Of a stretch of DNA of 64,000 nt, positions 46,301 to 48,269 are shown in pieces; the first letter of the stretch is position 1; each line of letters begins with the position of its first letter. Location of the stretch: assembly GCA_002917775.1 (NCBI GenBank), contig KZ627162.1:338357-402356 (forward strand), written 5' to 3'. Below the pieces are notes generated by a model. That model ran no database searches, was not told the origin of the DNA, and saw nothing but the letters and a program-made list of their open reading frames with translations. The DNA is from Glaciozyma antarctica PI12. Its lineage: Eukaryota; Basidiomycota; Microbotryomycetes; Kriegeriales; Camptobasidiaceae. Made by a program: the position numbers and the translations under genes.

Positions 46301-48269
46301 ATGTTCGTAAGTCGCGCCTCCCTCTTCCCTCTCCCACAGACCGAGAAGGCTCGAGCTTCCATCACCTCGCGTTCACACCTCGCGCCGCTCCTCCCACACG
46401 CGCGCCATCGCGGCCGCAAGTGTCACAGGCTACTCCAGGTACTCACGGCGAGCGGTCCGAGGCTTGGGGGGAGCACGGCGCGTCGAGGGGGCGGGTCAGG
46501 AATGGATCGCTGACCACTCGTTTCTTCTCGTGCAGGAAGCCCGCCTCAAGCAAGCAGAGGTCCTCAAGAAGGTGCGTTCAACTTTTAACCCCCTCGCGAT
46601 ACGCCACTGACAGTCTTGCATTCCTCAGGTCCTCGATGGTACGCTCAACTTGAACGCGACTCGCGAGGCGATGGCACTGACTCCTTCTCCCCTCTCTTCC
46701 CAGCCGTCAAGGAACTCGTCACGGACGCCAACTTTGAGTGCTCCGACGATGGAATCGTGCGTCCCCTCTCTCCATTCCTTCCGCACGCGTCGGCGGGGAA
46801 GAGCGACAGGAGCTAACTCTCCCCCCTTGCACGCGCGCAGAAACTCCAAGCCATGGACAACTCGCACGTCGCGCTCGTCTCCCTCCAGCTCAACAGCGCT
46901 GGCTTTGAAGAGTTCCGCTGCGACCGCAACTTGTACGTCCCCTCGCCCCCGCCCCGACGCGTCGCGCGGAATGGGGGAGCTGACGCATCGTTGATAGGTC
47001 GCTAGGAATGAGTCTGGCGAGCCTCCAGAAGATGGTCAAGTGCGCTGGAAACGACGATGTCGTTACTCTTCGTGCCGACGATAACCAGGACGTCCTTGCC
47101 CTTCTTTTCGAGAACAAGAGTGCGTTCTTCCTTTCTCCTTCCCTCCTTCCCAGGCTCCCCTCCCTCCCTCCCTCCCTCTCCTCCTTCCCACAACCTCGCC
47201 TCCGAACCAAAGCTAACGCACCCAACGCGCGCTGCAGAGCTCGATCGCGTCGGCGAGTACGAGATGAAGCTCATGGACATCGACGCCGAGCACCTCGGTA
47301 TCCCCGAGACGGTCTACGACGCCGACATTTCCCTGCCCGCCGCCGAATTCGCGCGCATCGTTCGGGACCTCAAGGAACTCGGAGAGAGCGTCAAGATTGA
47401 GGTCTCCAAGGAGGGAGTGAGGTTTAGTGCGGATGGGGATATTGGGAGTGCGAGTGTTACGCTTAAGCCTACTGTGGAAGAGAGGGCGGAGGAGATGGAG
47501 GAGGACGAGAAGAAGAGTGATGATGAGGAGGAGGAGGAGGAGGAGGAGGACGACGACGACGACGAGGACGTGCGTTCTTTCTTCTCTCTTTACTCGTCGC
47601 GCCGCGTCGGAACTGACGAAGGTGGAAACGCAGGTCATCATCGAGGACGCCGAGGAGAAGCCCGCGACGAACGATGCCGCAGCGGAGGACGAGGACGAAA
47701 AGCCCGAACTCGAGGAGGACGAGGAGGAGGTCAAGCCCAAGAAGAAGGCGGTCGTCAAGAAGGCGAAGGTCATCGAGAAGAAGCGCAAGGCCCCTTCGAC
47801 GCCGGTCAAGAAGAGCAAGGGGAAGAAGGCCAAGGGAGAGCCCAAGGAGAAGAAGGAGGAGGCGCCGAGGAAGGTCTCGATCAGTGTTCAGCAGGTCCGT
47901 TTCTTCCTTCCTTCTTCCCCTGCGTGCGCACGAGCTGATGGCGAACGCAGGCTGTCAACTTGACCTTCTCGATCAAGTACCTCAGCAACTTTGCCAAGTC
48001 GACCCCTCTGAGCGACTACGTTAGCGTTCGTCCTCCCTCTCCTCGTCCTCGTCGAGCGCGCTGACGACCGATCTACCGCAGCTTCACATGTCCAACGAAG
48101 TTCCCCTCCTCGTCGAGTACGCTTTCGCCCAGGGTCACATCCGGTATTACCTCGCGCCGAAGATCGCTGTGCGTTCTCTTTTTTCGCTCTGCCTGGATTG
48201 TGCTGAGGGCTGACGACGTTCGACGCTCGCAGCTCGCACTAGAGCCGTGGGCTTGGGAGCTTCGGGTGA
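46301..48269 (+). CDS. POL30: PCNA sliding clamp with acidic/lysine-rich insertion
   Basis: Ring-shaped DNA-polymerase processivity factor acting in nuclear replication and repair. Exon 1 codes only MF (46301-46306), exon 2 [12 protein letters not shown] (46536-46571), then [60 protein letters not shown], the interdomain loop [11 protein letters not shown], and [20 protein letters not shown], which keeps the lysine equivalent to the ubiquitin/SUMO site K164. After SVTLKPT a normal PCNA has a loop of about ten residues; here about 112 residues follow: an acidic run (47510-47575), [20 protein letters not shown], more acid, then lysine-rich [20 protein letters not shown]. The fold resumes with [20 protein letters not shown] and ends [13 protein letters not shown]. 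The frame is continuous through the insertion and its intron. The last splice is uncertain: acceptor ACTAG at 48239 would give SRGLGSFG and TGA at 48267-48269. Confidence 0.93.
47525..47571 (+). repeat. GAG/GAC trinucleotide tract in PCNA insertion
   Basis: GAG repeats followed by GAC repeats, coding a Glu run and an Asp run at the start of the PCNA insertion. It ends directly at a GTGCGT donor. Confidence 0.9.

Follow-up and report, generated by a model that had tools for sequence, protein, structure and literature searches.

The PCNA gene found in a window of 64,000 nucleotides from Glaciozyma antarctica PI12 (contig KZ627162.1; the window is the whole stretch of DNA analysed) raises the question of whether a clamp may carry more than a hundred additional, mostly charged residues in a single loop, and if it does, how these arose and whether they serve the clamp. 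PCNA is usually seen as strongly length-constrained, and a clamp that is about 40% longer is a natural experiment in where the ring can accept change. Such a clamp must still load, slide, be modified at K164 and unload.

The gene lies on the forward strand at 46301-48168 and was modelled as ten exons (Table 1), giving 358 residues that end in YYLAPKIA, the C-terminal end beyond this point being uncertain. Pfam searches with the spliced protein returned PCNA_N with 187.1 bits (curated cut-off 20.3, E = 1.2e-55) and PCNA_C with 146.8 bits (curated cut-off 23, E = 4.9e-43), the latter in two stretches. Rad1 was also above its cut-off (42.1 bits, cut-off 24), and Rad9 (15.8, cut-off 25) and CDC45 (11.5, cut-off 34) were below theirs; Rad1 and Rad9 are clamp relatives of PCNA. 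When the 20-Mb genome was searched with each of the two PCNA Pfam halves a single locus was detected, with two exon matches per half, and the Rad9 clamp was present at another place in the genome. All ten PCNA introns, including one starting at 48169, have CTRAY 16 to 28 bases upstream of their 3' end, which reads CAG or TAG. A combined intron pattern was enriched in the window, with 50 occurrences on the forward and 36 on the reverse strand versus 13.4 on average and 21 at most in 20 mononucleotide shuffles. This pattern caught eight of the ten PCNA introns, that of the insertion included, and also gave an overlapping alternative at 48117-48232 which would cut off part of exon 10.

Table 1. 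Exons of the PCNA gene and features of its charged insertion (positions in the window).
Feature	Position	Strand	Basis or remark
PCNA exon 1 (ATGTTC)	46301-46306	+	followed by intron 46307-46535, GTAAGT...CAG, branch CTGAC
PCNA exon 2	46536-46571	+	spliced gene model
PCNA exon 3	46629-46638	+	spliced gene model
PCNA exon 4	46704-46756	+	spliced gene model
PCNA exon 5	46841-46932	+	spliced gene model
PCNA exon 6	46998-47119	+	spliced gene model
PCNA exon 7	47238-47569	+	interdomain connector, K164, then insertion codons 1-32
Charged insertion, part 1 (acidic)	47474-47569	+	spliced gene and alignment to PDB chains
Imperfect GGA-type trinucleotide tract under the Glu/Asp run	47488-47568	+	period 3, 27 copies, 82% matches; possible slippage origin
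Intron within the insertion, 64 bases	47570-47633	+	GTGCGT, CTGAC 21 bases before the end, CAG
PCNA exon 8	47634-47894	+	remainder of insertion, then VSISVQQ
Charged insertion, part 2	47634-47873	+	acidic to 47732, lysine-rich from 47733
PCNA exon 9	47951-48025	+	5' splice site at 48026, giving SDYVSLHM
PCNA exon 10	48082-48168	+	up to APKIA; true C-terminal end uncertain

A preliminary description of this DNA had claimed an in-frame PCNA insertion of about 112 residues at 47480-47880, spanning an intron and with the frame kept on both sides. All of this was confirmed, the location being correct within a few bases: the insertion comprises residues 186-297, and the spliced protein runs from the preceding PCNA sequence through the 112-residue segment into VSISVQQAVNLTF. 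The intron inside it is canonical, and since its length is not a multiple of three, its removal is needed for the PCNA frame. The two coding parts of the insertion accordingly lie in different frames, each continuing into PCNA sequence, and without splicing the frame hits a stop at 47936-47938, upstream of exon 9. The insertion shows a coding-type codon bias, with a codon choice similar to that of the rest of the gene. GC at codon positions 1, 2 and 3 was 0.68, 0.25 and 0.91 in the insertion, where the high third-position value is partly due to the Glu/Asp/Lys make-up, and 0.61, 0.33 and 0.76 in the remaining PCNA, with introns at 0.64 overall. Lysine was encoded by AAG in 24 of 24 cases in the insertion and in 16 of 17 in the other parts of PCNA.

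The segment might instead be missing from the mature protein, if it were an intron that was retained or wrongly modelled or if the assembly were at fault here, and a donor-like GTGCGA at 47448 does score 5.4 bits, with no in-frame partner listed. Of the donor/acceptor patterns that were tried, a single in-frame GT...[CT]AG pair, 47474-47891, would remove the segment. The GTGGAA at its donor site reaches -3.3 bits versus 6.3 to 9.6 bits for PCNA's own donors, which the weight model favours because it was built from those same ten introns. The pair is without a branch motif, and its use would take out VSISVQ as well. Whole-segment excision by splicing was rejected on these three grounds among the frame-keeping pairs, the only ones listed. 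Together with a reading frame that is preserved across two exons flanking an intron whose length is not a multiple of three, this makes loss of the segment from the protein very improbable.

The position of the insertion in the fold was determined by comparison with known structures. A PDB search with the PCNA matched 97 distinct chain sequences, and among the matches listed (60 of the 97) none was longer than 312 residues except a fused trimer of 798 residues, so that none of those PCNAs is as long as the present clamp. Residue-by-residue alignments were made to 3k4x (fused trimer), 6qh1, 8gj5, 5tup and 8gjf, the last three chains being nearly identical; we take all five to be fungal PCNAs, with 3k4x from yeast. 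The ordinary-length PCNAs of 3k4x, 6qh1 and 5tup are collinear with the present clamp over residues 1 to 184/188 and once more from 294-296 up to its last residue. Between these parts they have 4, 5 and 6 residues versus 107, 108 and 109 here, a net gain of 103 in each case. The alignment to yeast PCNA is gapless up to residue 188, with the insertion directly after, and this alignment places the insertion within yeast 183-195, the loop known as P-loop or back loop. The strand following the insertion site is presumably E2, the loop coming after strand D2. We consider it very probable that this is the genome's PCNA with a P-loop grown from about 9 to 112 residues that are kept in the mature protein.

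The rest of the clamp was described in advance as intact. This stood for K164, for the interdomain connector and for both Pfam domains, and it failed for three details, namely an Ala at residue 178, an Arg in place of Lys168 and an acidic C-terminal end that was not found. Present in the clamp are K20, a Tyr at 114, the connector from 118, the Lys at 164 and APKI at 354. Residue 178 (window 47450-47452), a position of the subunit interface eight residues ahead of the insertion, is Ala here and Gly in the aligned chains, as in the ordinary-length PCNAs of 3k4x, 6qh1 and 5tup. In the available text of a review of fungal PCNAs G178 is described as conserved in PCNA (PMC9225081). Published work further reports that yeast G178S blocks translesion synthesis and that a yeast S177Q/G178A double mutant grows with a score of '+' versus '+++' for the wild type. 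S177 is unchanged in the present clamp, and the Arg that replaces yeast Lys168 is found in 6qh1 too. Following APKIA, the usual acidic end was not found in the tails that were tried: splicing at the canonical 48232 site gives an 80-residue tail with a low-complexity look, and read-through of intron 10 gives 14 residues. Both Gly178 and the acidic C-terminal end are conserved details of PCNA and are not family-defining. A possible C-terminal tail frame at 48065-48472 matched 0 Pfam families. In the possible tail region 48169-48475, an imperfect tandem repeat with a 27-base unit and 4.3 copies was observed at 48356-48471.

Long insertions in PCNA have been recorded before. As far as the available text goes, the review of 15 fungal PCNAs describes a C-terminal domain that is less conserved and varies chiefly in the P-loop/back loop (yeast 183-195), and a Cryptococcus neoformans insertion of more than 80 residues in the P-loop region that it gives as absent from the other species (PMC9225081). 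With 112 residues (net 103) the present insertion reaches that size. The Cryptococcus clamp likewise combines a long insertion in this loop with a retained K164, and it differs in having Thr at 168 where the present clamp has Arg, the two insertions being compared by description only (PMC9225081). Trypanosomatid PCNA, in the portion of the source available, is a homotrimer whose C-terminal portion is extended by more than 30 residues across the whole lineage (PMC5662062); the loop is not named there, and the gain is smaller than the 112 residues (net 103) found here. Given how distant the trypanosomatids are, their gain was probably independent. Given these two records the present insertion is not the first of its kind, and the view in the preliminary description of a PCNA length strongly conserved at about 260 residues is not supported as a general rule (PMC9225081, PMC5662062, both as available in part). 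The available portions of PMC7255605 and PMC8357120 describe no loop insertions in PCNA. Together with the C. neoformans report, the present clamp suggests the back loop as a recurrent site of expansion and raises the question of whether the loop has acquired a job.

The insertion contains 33 Glu, 14 Asp, 24 Lys and 3 Arg among its 112 residues, being 66% charged and having no aromatic residue. The anticipated order of a Glu/Asp-rich followed by a Lys-rich part was reproduced in the computed charge, which is -37 for the first 65 residues and +17 for the last 47. When these charges were shuffled 20,000 times, 0 shuffles reached the observed segregation of acidic and basic residues. Disorder was taken as likely from the charge content, the lack of aromatic residues and the segregation beyond the 20,000 shuffles, and we hold the insertion to be probably disordered. 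Exon 8 folded alone, with no alignment, gave a mean pLDDT of 63.8 and a pTM of 0.13, in weak agreement with disorder. In the DSSP output for this model no element was assigned, an empty output that may reflect a failed assignment and need not mean that helices are absent.

Searches for relatives of the segment were negative within their scopes. The insertion alone matched 0 Pfam families at E up to 0.1, and exon 8 matched 0 of 177,635 PDB sequences at E up to 1. Exon 7 gave 600 pattern matches in viral_contigs and 589 in genome_contigs, with 0 confirmed relatives; neither collection is fungal. The insertion as a copy from another gene was rejected as a candidate after a protein search of its own genome, in which both of the two matches were to PCNA itself (16 candidates scored) and weak matches may have been masked by low-complexity handling.

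The insertion may have grown neutrally, through trinucleotide slippage and small duplications in a P-loop that tolerates them, with no job beyond being harmless. The Glu/Asp run is coded by the imperfect GGA tract, which could expand without selection, and the Lys part contains short 15-base repeats. The C-terminal domain of fungal PCNAs varies mainly in this loop, according to the text available from the review (PMC9225081), and the insertion gave no match to a PIP-box, an APIM or a SIM-type motif. The arrangement of the charge in two blocks, not mixed, speaks against such neutral growth, as does the scarcity of comparable frames. In a six-frame scan of 254,000 bases (the window plus 19 stretches from elsewhere in its genome) the strict setting, requiring 55% charge or more and sufficient Lys and Glu/Asp over 80 residues, returned 2 places, PCNA and one elsewhere in the genome. 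A looser setting (50 residues, 50%) returned 5 places, of which two lie in the window, the scan being blind to which frames are real genes. Long K/E/D-rich segments are thus uncommon in the scanned genome and not unique. A second charged frame in the window, at 17979-18128 on the reverse strand, is also first acidic and then lysine-rich. Weighing both sides, neutral growth is a serious contender that falls somewhat short of an even chance.

A disordered arm that touches DNA or partners is the reading that we prefer. A precedent for its proposed working is p15PAF, whose disordered N-terminus exits the back face of PCNA and binds DNA, with slower PCNA diffusion suggested by the authors, in the part of the source available (PMC6182140). 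The same text places ubiquitylation and sumoylation sites on the back face as well (PMC6182140). The likeness to p15PAF concerns a disordered chain that leaves the back face and touches DNA, and no homology is claimed; p15PAF is a separate protein docked by a PIP-box, whereas the insertion belongs to the clamp chain itself and is anchored at either end. Three loops, one per subunit of the trimer, would then exit at the back face, which from the printed accounts should be the face of K164. The picture of three charged arms displayed by the ring, put forward in the preliminary description, is a fair one on this basis, because the loop is the P-loop or back loop and the back face carries the ubiquitin and SUMO sites in the published excerpts. 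The acidic first half would be repelled by DNA and hold the arm off the ring, and the lysine-rich second half could reach back and touch the nascent duplex behind the clamp, or partners located there. Contact of this kind might tune sliding, residence or partner access in the manner of p15PAF, yet as something built into the clamp itself.

That the insertion is a functional arm is suggested by its composition and by the p15PAF precedent, and we hold this tentatively, at a little below even chances. As a mechanism, a loop that grew by slippage and was tolerated is almost as probable as the disordered touching arm. The explanation as a whole, a P-loop-expanded PCNA with a probably disordered back-face arm that tunes the clamp, we put at about evens. 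For the preliminary description this means that its observation was upheld and its interpretation partly supported. A wider version, in which the clamp is self-decorated across a large fungal group and its three arms, covalently built in and segregated in charge, bind newly made DNA or histones from the face of K164 in the wake of the polymerase, is unlikely. The same low expectation applies to its consequence, that sliding, unloading or chromatin assembly would be tuned by the clamp itself in place of separate PIP-box proteins. Should the arms bind DNA or histones, the clamps of these fungi would behave differently from the yeast/human model.

Two other functions were considered for the insertion. 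It could be a module for localisation and the cell cycle, with the lysine clusters acting in nuclear import, STPVK being phosphorylated by CDK and the charge of the arm shifting in S phase. Four K[KR]x[KR] clusters (at 259, 266, 276 and 281), a CDK-type TPVK within STPVK at 273, a SUMO-type AKGE at 283 and a CK2-type SDDE at 200 fit this proposal, but short matches like these are expected by chance in a segment of such composition. PCNAs of ordinary length in the PDB, moreover, manage without any such insertion, and the proposal appears improbable.

Alternatively the arm could stand in for the charged ED/KER regions in CAF-1, so that PCNA would act as a histone chaperone for itself. Acidic and basic blocks would indeed be presented on the clamp face opposite the polymerase-binding side. 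The replacement is disfavoured, to the point of being scarcely credible, because the genome keeps the dimerisation domain of the CAF-1 large subunit with an acidic stretch in frame. The CAF1A dimerisation domain (PF12253) was detected with 50.7 bits against a cut-off of 25 bits, and the same profile gave 0 matches in 14 control genomes. The CAF1A open frame carries its own acidic stretch, and close to it on that strand lies a frame, presumably belonging to the same gene, that reads KAKAKAEKEEEKEKKR. The profile PF15539 had no match anywhere it was searched and hence has no bearing on CAF-1 replacement.

Some further observations were made on the genome and on the surroundings of the gene. The aromatic amino-acid lyase profile (PF00221) had no match in the genome, where an intron-split gene could escape it, versus matches in 5 of the 14 control genomes; absence of this enzyme would be odd in a Rhodotorula-type yeast. 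The PCNA gene is located about 26 kb from the end of its contig of 412,541 bases. Its upstream neighbour, at 45579-45968 on the reverse strand, contains an F-box-like domain (PF12937, E = 7.2e-6), and the downstream neighbour, at 49273-50055 on the reverse strand, an HSF-type DNA-binding domain (PF00447, E = 1.9e-15).
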